From: Malacoplasma penetrans HF-2
GTDB taxonomy: Bacteria > Bacillota_I > Bacilli_A > Mycoplasmatales > Mycoplasmoidaceae
Reading direction: 5' to 3'
DNA: 64,000 bases
NCBI RefSeq assembly: GCF_000011225.1
Contig: NC_004432.1
Location: forward strand, 1-64,000
Position numbers and translations under genes: made by a program
Notes under the pieces: model-generated
Database searches by the model: none
What the model was told of the DNA's origin: nothing
Seen by the model: the letters and a program-made list of their open reading frames with translations, nothing else
Shown here: in pieces, positions 15,083-58,846 of the stretch
Position numbering within the stretch: position 1 is the stretch's first letter
How the letters are laid out: each line of letters starts with the position of its first letter

Positions 15083-15437
15083 AAGCTCTCCTTTTGTTAA
15101 AAAAATAAACTGAAGATTATTCTATAAGCATGAAAAATTTTTGTTTGGAGTTTTAGACTGTAATTTTTAAATAAAGAATTAATAAAAACAACAACTATTT
15201 TCATTATTTAGAATTAATCTTAAATTCTTTGAAAAACACGTTAGATGGGTGAGGTTTAACACTATAAAAAAGTGTTTTTTTAAAAAAAATAGAAATTATC
15301 TCCATTTTCACCATCTACACTATATTAATGTTTAAAAATTAGGTAAATGTCATAAAAAAACAGCAAAAAATCTTTATTTTTTATTTAAAAATCTTTAATC
15401 GAACTCTTTTTCAATGCCTAGTTTCAGTTTTATGAAT
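15083..15437. other. Intergenic region between the coiled-coil gene and the RluD-type gene
   Basis: 355 bp without a gene. It holds the ribosome-binding site of the minus-strand coiled-coil gene and a small hairpin with arms ACACT/AGTGT at about 15259-15275 followed by seven T (plus-strand orientation). TAGATGGGTGA near 15242 and TTCACCATCTA near 15307 form a loose inverted repeat around it. No other feature is recognised. Confidence 0.5.
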
Positions 15438-34085: not shown

Positions 34086-34802
34086 ATGAAAAAATTCTTT
34101 GGTAAAAAAGCTGTTATAGAAGCATTTAAACAAAATGAATTAAGTGAAGTTTATTATGTTTCATATTTTGATGAATTGAAAGAATTTAAATCAAAAAACA
34201 TTAAACTAAATAAAGTTAATAAAAAGTTTTTTGATAAATATGAAGTTGTTCATCAAAATATTTTAGGAATTGCAAAAGAATCATCTTTAACTATTCATAC
34301 TGATTTTGACTCATTTATAGAAAAAATTAATAATTTAAATACTGATAAAAAAATTATTTTGGTTTTAGATGAAATTCAAGACCCAGGTAATTTTGGCGCA
34401 ATTTGTAGAACATCTAAATCTTTTCAAGTAGCTGGAATTATCTTTAAAAAGAATAACCAAATTCAAATAAATGAAACAGTTATTAAAACTAGTTTAGGAA
34501 CTGTAAACTATCTAAATTTTTTAAAAGTTAATAATTTATCAGAAGTACTAAACAAACTAAAGAAAGAAAACTATTGAACTGTTTGTACAGCACTTGATGA
34601 AAAATCAATTCCTTTATCAAAATTTAAAACTGATATTAATAAACTTGTTGTAATAGTTGGTAATGAGAATAAAGGGGTTTCAGAACTTATTAAAAAAGAC
34701 TCTGATTTCATTGTCAAAATTGAAATGGATTCTAGTGTTCAATCTTTAAATGTTTCAGTATCAACTGCTATTATTCTTTATTATTTAACACATTGCTTAT
34801 AA
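34086..34802 (+). CDS. rlmB: TrmH-family rRNA 2'-O-methyltransferase (RlmB-like)
   Basis: A SPOUT methyltransferase that modifies 23S rRNA, by analogy with RlmB. It encodes 238 aa with one UGA Trp (34575). The three knot motifs are present: LDEIQDPGNFGAICRTS, VIVGNENKGVS and SLNVSVSTAIILYYL. A short N-terminal substrate-binding domain (KKFFGKKAVIEAFK) is conserved. Its stop overlaps the ATG of the next gene by one base. Position next to cysS supports RlmB over other TrmH members. Confidence 0.9.
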
Positions 34803-35407
34803 TGTTAAAAAAATTTTTTTATAAAGTTAATTGAAATGAATGTCTTTACTTATATAGAACTGGTGGAAGTAAACACATAGAAAATTTACTAAATGATTTG
34901 TATTTTACTATTTTATCTAAATGAATTTGAAAACATTTAAAATCTAAAGAACCATTGTTTGATGATTTACAGTTATTTGGATATGAATCTTTTAAAAAGA
35001 TTATTAATACAATGGATTACAAGAATAAAGATTTTATTAGATGAACAGTATCTTGTTTAATCTATTCGTATAAAAATGAACTAAGAAAACAAAAAACTAA
35101 AAATAAAGCCTGAGATGATTTAGATTTCAATTCTTTAAATATAATTAGTGATATTTTCTATAAAAGTCCTTCAGAAATTTATGAAAATAAAGAGAATGAT
35201 AAAATAAAATCTCAATGATTTAAAAAAGCTTTAAAAGAAGTTAACTCAGCTTTGTTTGAACAAATTGTTTCTTATAAAAATCAAGGATATACACATAAAG
35301 AAATTTCTAAATTGTTAAATAAAAGTCTTGATCAAATTAGAGGTTGCTGAAATTACTATAAACAAAAGATTTTTGAATTGTCTATTAGAGACCAAATATT
35401 TAAGTAA
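34802..35407 (+). CDS. Sigma-70-like factor in the SigH position
   Basis: 201 aa, continuous only with seven TGA codons read as Trp. The C-terminal part FEQIVSYKNQGYTHKEISKLLNKSLDQIRGCW fits a sigma region-4 type helix-turn-helix. The middle part (INTMDYKNKDFIRWTVSCLIYSY) could correspond to region 2. The order cysS-rlmB-X-rplK-rplA matches Bacillus, where the sigma-H gene lies between rlmB and rplK, so synteny strongly favours a divergent SigH orthologue. Sequence similarity by eye is modest. It is translationally coupled to rlmB and followed by a terminator. Confidence 0.65.
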
Positions 35408-49193: not shown

Positions 49194-51803
49194 ATGAGTA
49201 ATATCAAAAACAATAATGATTTAAGTAAGAAATATGATCATAAGATTTGTGAGCAACAATTTTCACTTTGAACAACTCAAAAAGAATTGAATAAAAAGAA
49301 TTTAAAAGCTAATAAAAATTCTTATTCAATTCTTTTGCCACCTCCTAATGTTACAGGTAACTTACATTTAGGACATGCATTAAATGGAACTATTCAAGAT
49401 TGCTTAATTAGATTTAATAATTTAAAAGGATTGTCAGCTTACTGAATTTGTGGGATGGACCATGCTGGGATTGCTACTCAAACTAAATATGAAAAATATT
49501 TAAGAGAAAATAAAATTAGTAATAAAGATAAATCAAGAGATGAAAAAGTTGCTGACTTATTTGAGTGATCTCAAAATGTGGGAAATAACATTAGAAACCA
49601 ATGAAAGAATATGGGATTCTTTTTAGATTATGAGAATGAGCATTTTACTTTAGAAAAAAAATCTAATGAAATGGTTAATCAAGTTTTTGTAAAAATGTAC
49701 AATGATGGATTAATCTATAGAAGTAAAACATTAGTTAACTGAGATATTAAATTACAATCAGCGATTTCAAATATTGAAGTAATCAAAAAAGAAGTAGAAA
49801 CAAACTTGTACTACATTAGATACTATTTAAGTAATTCAAAGGATTATTTATTAGTTGCAACTACTAGACCTGAAACTATTTTTGTAGATGAATGTTTGGT
49901 TGTTAACCCAAAGGATAAAAGATATAAAAACTATATTAATAAATTTGCAATTAATCCTTTAACTAACAAAGAAATAAAAATAATTGCAGATGAATATGTA
50001 GACATTCAATTTGGTACTGGAGTAATGAAGTGTACACCAGCACATGACTTCAATGACTATGAATTAGGTAAAAAATATAAATTAAATATTATATCTTGTT
50101 TTAATGAAGATGGAACAACAAATAATTATGCAGTTGGTTTTGAAAATTTAAAAATAGCAGATGCTAGAGTTAAGTGTGTTGAATACTTAGAAAAAAATAA
50201 TTTATTAGAAAAAGTAGAAAAAACAATTAGCAATGTTGGTTTTTCTGAACGTACTAATGCAGTTGTTGAGCCTATGATGTCAGAACAGTGATTTGTTAAA
50301 GTTTCTGAATATTCTAAAAAAGTAATTGAGCTACAAAAAAGTTCTAAGAAAATTCAATTTTTCCCAATCAAGTTTGAAAAGAACTTAATTAACTGAATGA
50401 CTAATTTAAATGACTGATGTATTTCTAGACAGCTATGATGAGGGCATCAAATTCCTGTTTGATATAAAAAAGATAGTAAAGAAATTTATGTTGGTACTAA
50501 ACCTCCTAAAAATGAAGAACTATATGTTAGAGATAATGATGTATTAGATACTTGATTCTCTTCAGGTTTATGACCAATTACAACCACTGATGCTTTAAAG
50601 TCTAAAGATGCATTATTCCCTACAAATGTTTTAGTTACAGGTTTTGATATCATCTTTTTCTGAGTTTTTAGAATGATGTTTTTCAGTCTATATTTGAAAA
50701 AAGAAGTGCCTTTTAAACACTGTTACATAACAGGTTTAATTAGAGATGAACACAATAATAAGATGTCTAAATCTTTAGGTAATGGTGTAGATCCAAATGA
50801 TGTAATAGAAAAATATGGAGCTGATGCTTTAAGATTATTTTTATTATCATCATCTTCTCCAGGTGAAGATTTATGTTATGTAGAAGAAAAGGTGAAATCT
50901 TGCTGAGGTTTTATTAATAAACTTTGAAACTCATTTAGATATGTGGAAATGAATAGTTCTGATTTCAACTTTGATGAAGATAAAACTCCTAAGAATTTAG
51001 AAGACTTTGATAAATGAATTCTTAATAAATTTAATAAAGCATATTCTGAATTTTTACAACAATTTAATAAATATAATTTCTTAGTATCAATTAAAAAGAT
51101 ATTGGATTTTACTTGGGATGATTTTTGTAATACTTATATTGAATTGTCTAAGAACAGAACATCTAACCAAGAATCAAAATTATGAGTATTAAATTACTTA
51201 ATTAAAAAAATCTTAATTTTATTTCACCCTATGTGTCCGTTTGTGACATCAAATTTATATGATAATTTTAAATTTAAAACAAAAGATTCAATCTTGTTAG
51301 AAAGATTAGATTTTAAGAAAATTTCAAATTTAAAAGAATCATCAATTGAAGATGTTTTACAAATTATTAATAAAATTAGAATTTTCAATTTTGAAAATAA
51401 AATTCCAAACAATAAAGTTATAGATATTCACCTAGAAGTTTTAAATCCTAAATTATTTAAAATCTCAGATGAAGTTATTAACATTTTAAATACAGCTAAG
51501 ATTAATATAGTTAAACAAGATATTAAATCTTTAAAACCAGATTATGTAGAAAACAATTATCTAATTTTTATTTTGAATAAAGAAGATTTATTAGGTTCTA
51601 ATAATGAAGCTAATAATATTGAAAAAATAAAAAAAGAAATTGAATTTGTTAAAAGTGAAATTAGTAGATGTAATGGTATGCTTTCTAATAAATCTTTTAT
51701 AGAAAAAGCACCTAAAGAAAAGATTGAGTTAGAAAAGTCTAAAAAAGAAAAACATGAGATGAAACTTAAAGAACTTGAGAAACTATTAAGTAGCCATAAA
51801 TAA
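49194..51803 (+). CDS. valS: Valyl-tRNA synthetase
   Basis: This class I synthetase has an editing domain. It encodes 869 aa with many UGA Trp codons. [18 protein letters not shown] carries the HIGH motif near residue 45. The CP1 editing domain includes [18 protein letters not shown] and [31 protein letters not shown] is near 523. The C-terminal coiled coil is at about 800-865. AAGGATGG precedes the start. Last gene of the plsC-to-valS run, followed by a terminator. Confidence 0.97.
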
Positions 51804-51810
51804 TTAGAGA

Positions 51811-51843
51811 AAATCCTATATTGAAAAATATAGGATTTTTTTA
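51811..51843 (+). terminator. Rho-independent terminator after valS
   Basis: A 12-bp perfect stem (AAATCCTATATT / AATATAGGATTT) with GAAA loop and T run. Confidence 0.9.
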
Positions 51844-52002
51844 TTCTCTTTTTAAATACTTTTAGATGAAGTTTTAAAGATTTGTATTTATTTTTCTATT
51901 TATGCTCTAAATAAAAAATACATTTAGAAAAAAATAGCAAAAACCAATTCTGCCAAAATGGTTGATCATTCTCTTTGTAAAGAAAAATACATTTGAAACC
52001 CA

Positions 52003-52035
52003 ACTATTACTTTTTAAAAAAAGTGATAGTTTTTT
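52003..52035 (+). terminator. Terminator-like hairpin before the first 43-bp repeat
   Basis: ACTATTACTTTTT (52003-52015) pairs with AAAAAGTGATAGT (52018-52030), one wobble pair, followed by five T. The T run is also the start of the first 43-bp module. Confidence 0.55.
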
Positions 52036-52572
52036 ATGACATTCACCCTAAAAATTTACATACATATAATGAGGGGGAAATAGAGCTGATGATTTATTGG
52101 ATTGGATTTATTCAAAACTTTTATTCACAACATTGATGAACTAAACCACAAGCTTAGTTAAATTTAAAATTAATTTCAAAAAAGTTGTTGTTTTTTATGA
52201 CATTCACCCTAAAAATTTACATACATATAATGAGAGGGTAAATAGAACCAATGATTTTGATTAAATCAAAATTTCCTTTAATAACATTAGCTTTATTACT
52301 CTCTTAAACAAACTTTGTAAACGAAAAAAATTCAAAATTAATTATTTTAAAAAAACCTTACTTTTTTTATGACATTCACCCTAAAAATTTACATACATAT
52401 AATGAGAGGATAAATAGAGACAATGTTTTATTGAATCAGATTATCTTTAATTTCATTAGATCTTTACCTCTCTAAACTTATTTTTTTAACAGGTGAAATC
52501 TAAATTTATTTATTAAAAAAATATTTAATTTTTTATGACATTCACCCTAAAAATTTACATACATATAATGAG
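52031..52572 (+). repeat. Four perfect 43-bp promoter-like repeats upstream of comEC-like gene
   Basis: Identical 43-bp copies lie at 52031-52073, 52192-52234, 52364-52406 and 52530-52572; start-to-start distances are 161, 172 and 166 bp. Each contains TTCACC, a 17-bp spacer and a perfect TATAAT (first copy 52065-52070), so each could be a promoter. A purine-rich GAGGGGG/GAGAGGG/GAGAGGA/GAGGAG follows every copy. In the fourth copy this is the ribosome-binding site of the comEC-like gene, 12 bp before its ATG. The 118-129 bp between copies are related but strongly diverged. No long frame lies between them. Confidence 0.85.
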
Positions 52573-52583
52573 GAGTACAAATT

Positions 52584-53678
52584 ATGAAAATTACAAACAC
52601 AATAATTTTATGAATGTTAGCATGCTGCTTTTACATGAATTCAGAAACTGTTTCTTCTACCTTTCTGTTTCTTTTTTTCTTTGGAAGTTGTTTAGTTAAC
52701 CATGTTAATAAATTTAAGGTTTTATTAATTTCTGGATTGGGGTTTATTTTTCTTTTCTATGTTTTGTCCTTTGAAACCCCAAGCTCATTTAATTTCTTAA
52801 ATGATTATTTAAATAAAATAATGGGTATAAATTTAAGAGAAATTATTAATTCCTACTTTATAAAAATACATGGTCAAACTTTGGGATCATTTATAAGTTT
52901 AGTTTTGTTAAATATTAAAAATGATTACAACTATCCAATTTATTACAAATTAATTGACCTTTCCATAGTCCATTTAATAGTCATAAGTTCCTATCATATA
53001 AATATATTTTGTGGTTTAGTAAATAAAATTTTTCATAAATTCCCTACATTAGGGAGAATTATTTCAGCCCTCCTTTCTTTTACTATCAGTTATTTAAATG
53101 GTTTTTCACCATCTAGTATTAGGGTTTTTTGTGCTAATGTTTTTGGTATTTTTAAAAGCACAAGAAATTGTAAAGCTAATCTTTCTTTTATTTTTCTTGG
53201 ATTAGTGGCACCAAAAGTTTTAATATCTTTTGGTTTTCTTATGAGTTTTTTAGGATCTAGAGGAGTGAAACTCTTCTATAAAACTCATAATAGTGGTAAA
53301 TTGTATGAAGCTTTTTTTACTTCAATTTTTGCAACAATTTATATTATCCCTTCTTTGGGAATAATAAATAATTCAATATCGCTTTGGGGTGTCTTTCTTA
53401 GCCTTTTATATTCCCCGATTTTTATTTTGGTTTACATTTTCTTATTTATTTTTTCTTGAGTAAATTGGCTTGATCCGGTTTTTATTGTTGCTTATAACCT
53501 TATCTTTGAAGTGTCAAAAGTTTTAGAACATATAAATGTAGTTATTCCTATTTCTATATTTAAAAATGAATGGATTTTTTCCATTTATTATTCTTCTTTA
53601 GAATTATTCAATTTATATATATTTCGAAAAAGGAGTTCAATGAAATGAAAATTAAACAAATTAGAAAGAGTGTACTAG
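52584..53678 (+). CDS. comEC: ComEC/Rec2-like DNA-uptake channel core
   Basis: 364 aa, strongly hydrophobic, about 8-9 predicted spans, several UGA Trp codons. Near residue 130 VHLIVISSYHINIF corresponds to the ComEC competence-domain motif (HLLAISGLHI). LNGFSPSSIRVFCANVFGIF corresponds to the (SxxRA) motif region. Neither the N-terminal OB domain nor the C-terminal metallo-beta-lactamase domain is present. In Mycoplasma genitalium comEC likewise neighbours holA. Reading frame ends with TAG 53676, overlapping the next gene by 34 bp. Four promoter-like repeats precede it. Confidence 0.78.
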
Positions 53679-55570
53679 GTTTTATTTCTTTCTTCCCTTG
53701 TATACCTTTTGCTACAGCATATTCCTTTCATGCTGAAAATAATAATTTACAAATTAATAATTTCCAGACATCTTCAACCTCAAATATACCATCTTTTCAA
53801 ACTGCAACATCTTCTTTAAGGACATCTGAAAATTCTTTATACATTGCAACTCCAAATAATGAAATTAATAAAATGTTGAATTTTAATTTTAGTTATAATA
53901 GTTCATCCAACAACGTCCTCTATATAAATGAAAGTAATAAAAATAAAATTGCTAAAATCATAGCTTTGTATATGTTTCAAAACTATGATTTTTTCTTTGA
54001 TGATGCATTAAATACTGTAAGCAGTGTTATAAAACAAGAATATGAAAAAATTAGTTCAAATAAAGGTCTTGTTTATAGTAAATTAGAAAATACTTCTAGT
54101 GAACCACTTTTAAGTTTCTTTTATTTTTTTAAATATGAAAATTCAATGCTAGGTTCAGCTGGTATAAAAGTTAGTTCTGTTCCTATAATGAAATACTTAA
54201 AGTGAAATAATATTGGTAACGATCAATACACTATTAGTTTTACTATTCCATATACTTGAACAAGTGGTCCAAGATTTTATTTAGATAACATAAAAGCAAA
54301 TCATAAATTAATAGATATTTATTATCAAACTAGGTATGAAAATGAATTTATAACTATAGGGTTTGGAAATATTATTTTTAGAAACATAGCTAATAACATC
54401 TCAAATTTTTCTTATACAAATATTGATCCAATGGATTTAACTTATGAAAAACTTAAAATTTTATTTAAATTAAACAATAGTTTAATTCCATCCTCTTTAA
54501 GTTACACAATGGAAAAAAGTGATGGATTCTATAAAATAAATATTAAAAAAATAACTTATGAAATTAAGGATATTCAAAAGTTCAATCTTTATTATGAAGG
54601 CAATTATTCAGTTGTTTTTACTAAGAGTAATTATGAGTTTAATTGAGATGTTATTAAATCTAGACATAATTTGATAAGTCTTTCTACCAATGATTTGTGG
54701 AATGAATTAGTTATTAACCAAAGTTACAAAAATATGATTAATAATATTTCATTATCAAAAGATTATCAAAATAACAAAATAAGAATAGATATTGATTTTA
54801 ATAAATATAAATATCAAAATTTACTTCTATTTACTTTAATGGAACAACTGTTTAAAGATCAATCTTTTGAAATTAAATTAGATACTGATAGTTCTGTAAA
54901 TTTTTATGTAGATGACAAATATGAACATATTCTTTTTAAAAACTTTAACTTAGATTTAATAAATGCCAAATTCAATTTATTACCATATGATTTAAAGCTT
55001 AATAAAATAGAGTTAGTTAATGAAGATTTAGAAAAAGAAACTATATCTTTTAAATCTTATTTATCAACAACAATAAATAAAATTAATTATGATTTTTCTG
55101 TTTTTGGAATCTTTACAAATTTTGAAAATTATAACTTTTGAGATATAGAAAAAATTACTAATTTTTTTAATAATAATTTTTATGATGAAGAACAAAATTT
55201 AGATATTGAAAAAATTGAAGAAGTTTTTAAAGTTCAATCAAATTGATCTTATTTATTAGACCACTCAAAAAATTTAATTTTTAAAAACTTGAAAATTGAT
55301 CTTAATGATGATGAAAACAAGTTTGTTTTATCTTTTGATATTTTTAACAATAAGAATTTATATTTAGATTCATCTTTTATTGAGATAAAAACAAAAGAAA
55401 AAATAGTGGTTGAAGATAATGAAGAATCAGAAGAAACTAATAAACCTGAAGAAGAAATTGTTGTTCCCCAAAAAAAGAAATCTAATTTAAATTATTTATG
55501 ATTTTTGATTTTGCTAATACCAGCTATCATTATTTCTATAAAGTTTAAATACTTTAAGAAAAAGAAATAA
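53645..55570 (+). CDS. Surface protein with signal peptide and C-terminal membrane anchor
   Basis: 641 aa with UGA Trp codons. AAAAGGAG lies 9 bp before ATG 53645. A signal sequence (VLGFISFFPCIPFATAYSFHA, about 10-30) is followed by an Asn/Ser-rich ectodomain, an acidic Glu/Lys stretch (about 595-620) and a membrane span (about 621-636) with a KFKYFKKKK tail. I recognise no family. It starts inside the end of comEC and precedes holA by 12 bp, so it is co-transcribed with both. A role in DNA capture is possible but unsupported beyond context. Confidence 0.65.
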
Positions 55571-55582
55571 AATAATAATAGT

Positions 55583-56521
55583 ATGATTTTGATTCATGGT
55601 GAAGATATTGGTTTATTAGAAGAAAAAGTTAGTGAATTAACAAATAATAAATTCACTAAAATAATTTTTGATTCTAACTTTGATGATATTTTTTTAAGAT
55701 TCACACAGAGAAATTTGTTTGATGATTTTGATTTAGAAAACAATCATGTAGATTCTGAAAAATTTTTAATTTATGATTTTAAAAAAATTTTAAGTAATTC
55801 AAAAACTGAAGAGAATAAAAAGATTTTAGAAATGCTACAATTTTTAACAGATTCTAAAAAAGAAATTATTTTTTTATCCAACATTAAAGAACCTTCAAAA
55901 GTTTATTCAAAGTTTTTCAAAGTTATGAACATTAAAAAACTTAATAAATTAACTATGAAAAACTATACTTTAAAGTTATTAAAACAAAACAACCTTTCTT
56001 TGAAGCAAAATGAGTTTGAATATTTAATAGACTGTTTGCAACCAGATAGTTTATTAATTAAAAACGAAATAGAGAAATTAAGCTTAGTTACTGAAACTTT
56101 AAATATGGATACTATTACAAAAATTATTTCAAATGATATCAGTAAAAATACATTTGAATTAATAGATAACTTCTTTAATAGAAGATATGAAAAGATTGTT
56201 AAACAAATAATTGCTTTAGAAAATTCTAAAATAGATTTCACAGAAATATTTAATATTATGGTTTCTCAATTATTTTCTTTAAAATTATATAGGTTGAATT
56301 ATTTGGAAAATAGAAGCTATAGAAAAATATGTATGGATTTCAATGTCCAACAATTTCAAATAGATAAGTGAGAAAAACTTATCTTAAACATAGATGTTTT
56401 TCAAATTGATAACTTGTTAAATAATTTGTTAAAATTAAACATATTTTATTTAAGTGGTAAGAAATCATTACCAACTTACTTAAAAATAATTCTCTTAAAT
56501 GGAGGAGAATATGGACTATAG
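55583..56521 (+). CDS. holA: DNA polymerase III delta subunit
   Basis: Delta opens the sliding clamp within the clamp loader. It encodes 312 aa with one UGA Trp. The family is divergent; recognisable features are the N-terminal MILIHGEDIGLLEEKVSEL, LIYDFKKIL and IIFLSNIK strands, the LIDCLQPDSLLIKNEIEKLSL helix pair, and the C-terminal ISKNTFELIDNFFNRRYEKIVKQI domain. The comEC neighbour supports the call. It overlaps the next gene by 11 bp. Confidence 0.82.
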
Positions 56522-57842
56522 TAAAATTAAAAAACTGTATTTGGAGCAAACAAAAACTGTAATTACATTATTAGACAACCAAGAGTTTGTTGGTCTTCTT
56601 ACTAGTAATGAACTTTTAAGAACAAATTTTGTTGATCAAATTTCAGTTCTAAGATTTTTAGAAAAAAAGCTTACAGACACGAAATTAATTGAGAAAGAAA
56701 TTAGTGATTCAAAAAAGAAAAAAACAAAGTTAGATTTAATAGAAATTAAAGATTTAGACAAATCAGATATTTATATTAAAAAGTTCAAAGAAATAACTAG
56801 TAGTTCTCCTGAATTTAATGAATTCTCTGAAATTAAAAAAACAGAAAATATAAAAGATATTATTAAGTATTTAAATGTTTTCTTAAAAAATACTTTTAAT
56901 AAAGATTTGGATTATTTTTTAAAAAATAAATCTGAAAATGAAACTGTTAGAGCAGAGAAGATTGAAAATGATAACTTTGATAGTAACACTAATCAAAATC
57001 CACACTCAAACACTTCTCAACCTAATGGTGGGCCAGGGATGTTTGGCAATATGTTCGGTGGTCAAGGACCTATGTTTAGAGGGTGGCCAAACTATGAACA
57101 AAATTTGCAAGAACAATTATTAATCATTGCTAGTACAGAGCTTAAAAACCAAATTAACTCAGGCAAGTTTTATCTTTATAAAACAAAACCTAAAATAATG
57201 CTTTATTTAAAAAATATTATTGGTTGTTTATCTCTTTTTGTTTCAGCTATTTGAATAATAGTAATGGTGATGCAAATTATTACCACTTCACTTCAATCAG
57301 GTAATTTATCTGCTTTATGATATGGAGATCCATCTGCTTCAACTCCAATTGTATTAGCTCCAGGAAACACTTTCTTTACCTACATCCTCCATATATTTTT
57401 AATAGGATGTTTTGGATTCTATGGATATAAACATCTTGTTAACAAAAAGAATGAAAACATTCTTTATGGTTTTGATAAAAGAACAGCAATGCTATTAACT
57501 TTTGTGATGATATCAGTTTCTGGAATATTCATATTTTATTTAGCTAATTGAATACCTTATATTGATGATGTTAAAAACTTCACAGGTGGAGCTTATTCTT
57601 CTCAAAGTATACCAAGTAGAGCTGTACAAAATTCTAGTGGTGCAGTAGTTACTTTCCAAATATTTGTTTGAACATTATTGTCTGGTTTAGTTATGTTTGC
57701 TTTCTTAATCATTTCTTACATTTTTGCATGAGTATATATGCCTAAAATTGATGAAGAAAGAATTAGATTAAAAACTCAAGAAATTATTGAACAACTAAAA
57801 AAAGGTGATCAGTTTAAAAGTGCTGCTAACCCAATAAATTAA
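56511..57842 (+). CDS. Polytopic membrane protein with long cytoplasmic N-terminus
   Basis: 443 aa with UGA Trp codons. ATG 56511 follows GGAGGAG; an in-frame ATG at 56499 is less likely because it lies inside that ribosome-binding site. Residues 1-150 are charged and helical. A Gly/Asn/Pro/Met-rich patch (GGPGMFGNMFGGQGP, about 174-188) follows. Four probable spans lie at about 232-256, 288-304, 325-345 and 383-407. I do not recognise the family. It is last in the comEC operon, just before a terminator. Confidence 0.65.
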
Positions 57843-57848
57843 AAAAAT

Positions 57849-57892
57849 TAATGCTTACTTTAATTTAAAAATTAATGTGAGCATTTTTTATT
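57849..57892 (+). terminator. Rho-independent terminator
   Basis: AATGCTTACTTTAATT pairs imperfectly with AATTAATGTGAGCATT around a short A-rich loop, followed by a T run. Confidence 0.7.
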
Positions 57893-57934
57893 TTTTTTGT
57901 TTTATAATTGATTGATGAAAAATGAAGATGCCAA

Positions 57935-58846
57935 ATGAAACAAATATTTACAATCAAAAAAGAACAAAGCAAAAACAGATTACTTTCATTTCTTTTTCCT
58001 TTGTATCCATTAAAAATTTTCTCTAGTGTTAATTCAATTGCAATCCTAGCAGTTTTAATAGCACTTAGATTAGTGTTGCAAAAGTTCTCAATTTTTATTC
58101 CAGCTTTTAGTTTATCTATTTCACTGGCTTGAACACCACTAATTATTATTGGATGAATCTATGGTCCTATTTTTGGTTTAGTTTCTGGGATAGTTACAGA
58201 TAGTTTGGCATTATTAATGTCCAAATCTACATGGTTTTGATTGTATGCAATTCAAGAACCAATGTTAGGTTTAATAGCTAGTTTATTTGGGTATGCATAT
58301 AGGTTATTAACTAATAAAAATAACCCAAACAAAATTTGATCCTTTATTTTCTTTCAAACAATCTTACTTATCTTCTCTTCTATTTGTATTTATATTTTGA
58401 TTTTTAAAGTTTCTACAGACATTAGATTTGAAGGTAAAAGTTCATTGGAGAAATTCTTATATAGTAATTCCAAATGAGTCATATTATCATCCATCATATT
58501 CTTTGCAGTATGTATGGAAACATTAGCTTTAGTCTTTTTCAAAAAATTTAGTAAGAATTTTATTATGTGTGCTTTGATCATATCTTTAGTTTGCTCTATT
58601 TCAATTATCTTCTCATTTGTATTGGGACCAATCTCAGCTAATGAATATTATAAATTTATTCACAATGGAATAGACTCCCCTTACTTTGTTAAATATGGTG
58701 TAATCTTTTATTTAATTCCAAGAGCTATTAAAGAATCAATTAAAGCACCAATTCAAATTTATGTCTTAATTGTTTTAATTCCAATAGCAAATATTTATAT
58801 CAACCAACTTAAGATGTCAAAATTCTTAAAGTGAAAAATAGGATAA
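57935..58846 (+). CDS. ECF transporter S component (folate-type)
   Basis: This integral membrane substrate-binding subunit works with the shared EcfT/EcfA module. It encodes 303 aa with UGA Trp codons. SIAILAVLIALRLVLQKFSIFIP, then SISLAWTPLIIIGWIYGPIFGLVSGIVTDSL, follows the FolT-like pattern; a total of about six spans is visible. Substrate is unproven. A TATAAT at 57903-57908 suggests a short leader. ATG 57935 is the first in-frame ATG; the upstream ribosome-binding site is weak. Confidence 0.78.

Follow-up and report, generated by a model that had tools for sequence, protein, structure and literature searches.

A 44-bp module that stands in four identical copies before a comEC-like gene of Malacoplasma penetrans HF-2 is quite probably the promoter of a competence and recombination regulon, read by a SigH/MG428-like sigma factor. 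The cores of the array are identical, the motif is dispersed across the genome before a particular set of genes, this set is conserved in related species despite turnover of the promoter, and tandem copies recur at other loci; beyond this, we infer that every copy fires, that expression can be induced and that the cells import DNA. The stretch analysed, referred to here as the window, comprises the first 64,000 nucleotides of contig NC_004432.1.

A four-copy array of promoter-like modules before comEC

The 44-bp core (TTTTTTATGACATTCACCCTAAAAATTTACATACATATAATGAG) occurs on the forward strand at positions 52030..52073, 52191..52234, 52363..52406 and 52529..52572, all four copies before comEC being identical (E 3e-15, 6.5e-15, 8.7e-15 and 5.4e-15, respectively, under the motif model R1 described below), and the comEC start codon lies 11 bp beyond the fourth. 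An earlier note on this DNA had described four perfect 43-bp modules in tandem, which was confirmed, the identical block measuring 44 bp and the spacers 117, 128 and 122 bp, with no match to the core in 100 dinucleotide shuffles of the window, even when three mismatches were allowed. The stretch at 52030..52528 (+) consists of three tandem units of core plus diverged spacer, 161, 172 and 166 bp long, whose spacers are mutually homologous (68–74% identity over aligned positions, z 5.5–10.3 against mononucleotide shuffles), and the array is therefore an old tandem duplication of a ca. 165-bp unit in which the core alone is still perfect. Identity of 100% in the core against 68–74% in the remainder of the units supports the suggestion that the core is kept by selection.

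Each of the four copies contains TTCACC, 17 bp and TATAAT, as previously noted, but TTCACC did not hold up as a conserved element, the bases after TT varying across 23 aligned sites in which ATGACATT is invariant. The Shine-Dalgarno-like run said to follow each core leads directly into comEC (ATG 52584) at copy 4 alone, where it reads GAGGAG, whilst the purine runs of copies 1–3 precede the ATGs of very short open-reading frames (18–26 codons, UGA read as Trp). An Rfam scan of 51000–58000 gave no match, and the inverted repeats at 51000–54000 are AT-rich, imperfect and unpaired around any core (longest 25 of 74).

These short open-reading frames, together with the hairpins that directly follow the −10 box in other arrays of the genome, would fit a role for copies 1–3 as decoys that bind the sigma factor, or as sources of short RNAs with tiny open-reading frames, which add nothing to comEC expression. 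Such a role for the array would not conflict with a regulon promoter, but we think it rather unlikely: the comEC units have no such hairpins, and no terminator-like site was found between the promoter copies and comEC, so transcripts from copies 1–3 should run through. If the module is a regulon promoter throughout, these transcripts would include the comEC ribosome site GAGGAG, which the transcript of copy 4 would largely lack if it starts 6–8 nt after TATAAT, and with several copies in tandem transcription would begin at more places where the need for output is greatest and the sigma factor is scarce. The role of the four copies, be it as initiation sites, as a means to a better ribosome site on longer transcripts or as decoys, is the least certain part of our interpretation.

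The comEC-like gene (52584..53678, +), encoding a putative DNA uptake channel, matches PF03772 (42.4 bits, cut-off 23) and TIGR00360 (49.8 bits, cut-off 36.5); the gene models in this region require UGA to be read as Trp. The second gene of the operon (53645..55570, +) encodes a surface-type protein with N-terminal signal-like and C-terminal membrane segments, for which no family match was found, and is followed by holA (DNA polymerase III delta; 55583..56521, +; TIGR01128 98.4 bits, cut-off 80) and by a gene for an MPN449-family membrane protein (56499..57842, +; NF045753 E 3e-18, below the curated cut-off), the last of a conserved gene order. Among five congeners (G004, G005, G006, G008 and G009), homologues of the second gene adjoin comEC in G009, G004 and G005 (a weak match in the last) and were not found in G006 or G008, whilst the position of holA is kept in G009, G005, G006 and G008; the G004 stretch stops before holA and its order is readable only up to that point. 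The full order from comEC to the MPN449-family gene is kept in G009, and also in G005 with the weak second gene. The earlier idea of a multi-promoter array tied to DNA uptake stands in that the downstream gene is comEC, but its confinement to one operon gives way to a genome-wide regulon.

Distribution of the motif in the M. penetrans genome

The motif model R1 was built from the 23 aligned sites, which match it by construction, and whose invariant parts are a T-rich run plus ATGACATT, then ACAT-nn-ATATA at a fixed distance. Searching the whole genome (1,358,633 bp, one contig) gave 30 sites at E ≤ 5e-4, sites inside one tandem locus or one paralogous family not being independent, and the genes downstream were read at 19 of the 30. 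One site precedes ruvAB (367072, −) and another cinA-recA (818765, −), recA and ruvAB thus sharing a conserved promoter motif. Others precede a C39-peptidase ABC exporter gene (983072; NF045998 307 bits, below the curated cut-off of 500) and, at 455243, an MPN313-family gene (31 bits, cut-off 100) that encodes a KKKLKGG leader, this GG-leader peptide gene being preceded by seven tandem promoter copies. Weaker copies stand at 65313, before a weak dprA-like gene (PF02481 22 bits, below cut-off), and at 15314..15359 (−; R1 E 1.2e-7), before a coiled-coil family gene (15082–14624, −). The remaining sites that were read all lie before genes of this one paralogous coiled-coil family, which matched no Pfam or NCBIfam family; its assignment to DUF16 was considered and found unsupported. 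No comG, comF or comEA-type genes were seen. The same promoter before comEC, recombination genes and a peptide exporter appears to mark a set of genes for taking up and recombining DNA.

Several further observations concern these genes. The coiled-coil family is large, stands behind about half of the promoter copies, and is also seen in records L014, L015, L016, L018, L082 and L084–L087. Short MPN313-family proteins with a double-glycine-type leader occur in L014 (11244–11546), L127 and L134, and the dprA-like gene (L083, 3384–3914) is short and lies just before an apparent ATP synthase operon. A hairpin directly after the −10 box is present at many sites (mpn313 and cinA; L014, L016, L018 and L085; G009 and G004), the sequences differing whilst the pairing is kept; it is missing from the comEC array and was for that reason excluded from the promoter definition.

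The genome-wide search for the core, which the earlier note had proposed, bears on the alternative that a dispersed repeat, mobile or satellite-like, accounts for the 44-mer, which would then lie near genes by chance and owe its identity within the array to recombination rather than selection. Thirty genome copies, tandem arrays at two main loci and four perfect copies before comEC are in keeping with such a repeat, yet the sites, dispersed as they are, each face a same-strand gene wherever their surroundings were read, and these genes form one coherent set, which argues that the module is not a mobile repeat. Moreover, identity ends sharply at the edge of the core whilst the surrounding unit has diverged, no notable inverted repeats flank the copies in 51000–54000, and in congeners these genes are preceded by motifs of unrelated sequence and like layout. 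We consider a repeat of this kind highly improbable.

The same genes under other promoter-like motifs in congeners

R1 itself found nothing convincing in 24 relatives (best E 0.0024). A joined-query protein search placed ruvA, recA, cinA, comEC and the C39 gene in the five congeners; G004 and G009 also yielded an MPN313-like gene, which in G004 directly precedes comEC. Within each species, the upstream regions share a species-specific 36-mer (z 19.7 in G009, 9.1 in G004, 7.3 in G005, 6.1 in G006 and 4.8 in G008), each score exceeding all 200 dinucleotide shuffles searched likewise, and comEC carries its own species-specific motif in all five. The gene sets comprised ruvA, C39 and comEC throughout, together with mpn313 in G004 and G009 and cinA in G004; they were picked after the sequences had been viewed, G009 and G008 being scored without cinA, and since the motifs had first been spotted by eye, the z values serve to confirm them and not to discover them. 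With cinA added, z was 17.2 in G009 and 3.5 in G008, the G008 set then being unconvincing, not above the largest shuffle (77 against 76). In G004, G009 and G008 the upstream box and the −10 box are as far apart as in the window module, as counted by hand and without statistics. In G034 (M. genitalium-like) and in G043 and G025, inspection of the upstream regions by eye gave faint common words, for which no motif is claimed. The C39 genes of G008 and G006 (L137, L141) have their start codon 1–3 nt past the −10 box, which would mean leaderless mRNA.

A separate model trained on four G009 sites (before C39, ruvA, comEC and mpn313) found 12 sites at E ≤ 2e-10 in the G009 genome, four of them the training sites. 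The eight new sites comprise five before coiled-coil genes (at four loci), two before cinA-recA and one, C8:113887, without a resolved open-reading frame behind it. Two tandem pairs, 189 and 192 bp apart, are among them, one before a coiled-coil gene and one 570–760 bp upstream of cinA-recA, and single sites stand before coiled-coil genes at C5:144553, C10:31571 and C12:17904 (the latter two partly masked). Every resolved G009 site (11 of 12) fits the gene set of the window's species, the independent new loci numbering about five. The tandem copies before the MPN313-family gene of M. penetrans and at two loci in G009 imply that arrays are a habit of the regulon and not an accident of comEC.

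A candidate sigma factor

The product of 34802..35407 (+) is likely a sigma factor, and a candidate for one dedicated to this regulon; its gene occupies the slot between rlmB and rplK, the sigH position. It scores 38.3 bits against TIGR02937 (cut-off 42.9), and in a genome search this model matched positions 34919–35341 of the window at E 9e-8, besides rpoD, and also a short HTH gene after ftsY; a PF04542 search found RpoD alone, and there is a weak match to PRK08295. The order cysS-rlmB-sigma-rplK occurs in the window and in L214, L215 (G004), L216 and L218 (G009), thus in four congeners, and the relatives of the protein (L097/L215 of G004, L098/L218 of G009, L214 and L216) share 31–37% identity. 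In the Malacoplasma-like records L217, L219 and L220 the slot before rplK showed no sigma-like gene, and a protein search for the candidate in G005, G006 and G008 found none; the latter three nevertheless have shared promoters, which counts against the sigma reading.

Weak matches suggest that SigH and MG428, the sigma factor of recombination in M. genitalium, may be relatives of the protein. A five-sequence profile matched the PDB sigma-H chain 3mzy at E 0.0048, although a ‘CAP repeat’ chain, 8vd6, was a stronger local match than 3mzy, and hhalign against three MG428-like sigma factors gave a probability of 84.5 and E 7e-6, with only 16–18% identity and a different gene order. The AlphaFold model is poor outside the C-terminal HTH (mean pLDDT 52), and Foldseek returned no match at E 0.001, the top ones being sigma factors. 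In G008, about 60 near-identical 82-codon HTH matches to TIGR02937 resemble a high-copy insertion sequence.

That the candidate reads the 44-bp promoter we infer from the company it keeps. In the window copies a good TATAAT follows TTCACC after 17 bp, a pair that the housekeeping sigma factor could also read, and the block that varies least is found immediately upstream of where a −35 element usually lies; the module might accordingly be an RpoD promoter in which ATGACATT (about −41 to −34) is an activator or repressor site, the regulon being real but served by no alternative sigma factor. We regard this as unlikely, in view of the upstream box and the ACATnnATATA near the −10 changing together between species at a seemingly constant distance, as expected if one protein reads both, and of the sigma-like gene being syntenic in several of the species.

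In our preferred interpretation, RNA polymerase carrying an alternative sigma factor akin to SigH and MG428, for which the 34802–35407 product is the most likely choice, would recognise the module by its ATGACATT box and, at a fixed distance, its ACAT-nn-ATATAATG region. Once active, the sigma factor would switch on ComEC for DNA import, along with the surface protein and holA behind comEC, and the same switch would turn on CinA-RecA for strand exchange and RuvAB for branch migration, as well as the C39 exporter, the GG-leader peptide and the coiled-coil family.

Comparison with known systems

The sigma-20 system of M. genitalium has reportedly been described as one for recombination and gene transfer. 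In G034 the sigma gene stands in the order osmC-sigma-ptsI, and on this basis we treat that genome as M. genitalium; we also equate MG220 with MPN313, the family to which the GG-leader gene of M. penetrans belongs. Sigma-20 (MG428) activates recA and ruvAB, and RrlA, an accessory protein of the system, is MG220 (PMC9262362). The regulon proposed here would resemble it in having an alternative sigma-like protein, in a member of the same bacterial family, with recA and ruvAB co-regulated, the comparison covering gene set and sigma protein. It differs in that comEC, the C39 exporter and the coiled-coil family carry the promoter, that tandem arrays occur, and that the sigma gene is at the sigH position, whilst MG428 lies between osmC and ptsI.

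In Lactobacillus sakei the sigH locus is cysS–nusG, and sigma-H activates comEC and dprA (PMC3364868). By analogy with this factor and streptococcal ComX, one sigma factor would here serve comEC, the weak dprA-like gene and recA; its gene likewise lies in the cysS–nusG/rplK region, here as cysS-rlmB-sigma-rplK, and the DNA-uptake gene comEC carries the regulon promoter, in this case fourfold. Unlike in the SigH/ComX systems, the promoter is a different one, RuvAB, the coiled-coil family and tandem promoters are included, and comG/comF/comEA-type genes were not seen. Promoter repeats are also known from M. penetrans itself, those of the mpl/P35 lipoproteins being, in work cited in PMC8614714, an invertible phase-variation device with flanking inverted repeats; measured against that account, the comEC array is alike in being promoter repeats of the same species and unlike in consisting of direct repeats without flanking inverted repeats.

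A literature search, with the key MG428 papers outside its scope, brought up no publication that describes such a regulon for M. penetrans or Malacoplasma. It is conceivable, and we put it forward tentatively, that Malacoplasma possesses a previously undescribed, peptide-linked competence programme, in which a sigma factor descended from SigH evolves fast and jointly with its promoter, towards near species-specific recognition, whilst the targets comEC, recA, ruvAB and a GG peptide with its C39 exporter stay fixed and tandem arrays recur. The proposed regulon bears on the question of whether, and by what means, mycoplasmas become competent, as it supplies a target list, a promoter sequence and a candidate sigma factor in further species. 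Recombination is thereby linked to comEC and to a peptide exporter, and a regulator and its promoter would be seen to diverge jointly whilst the set of genes stays fixed.
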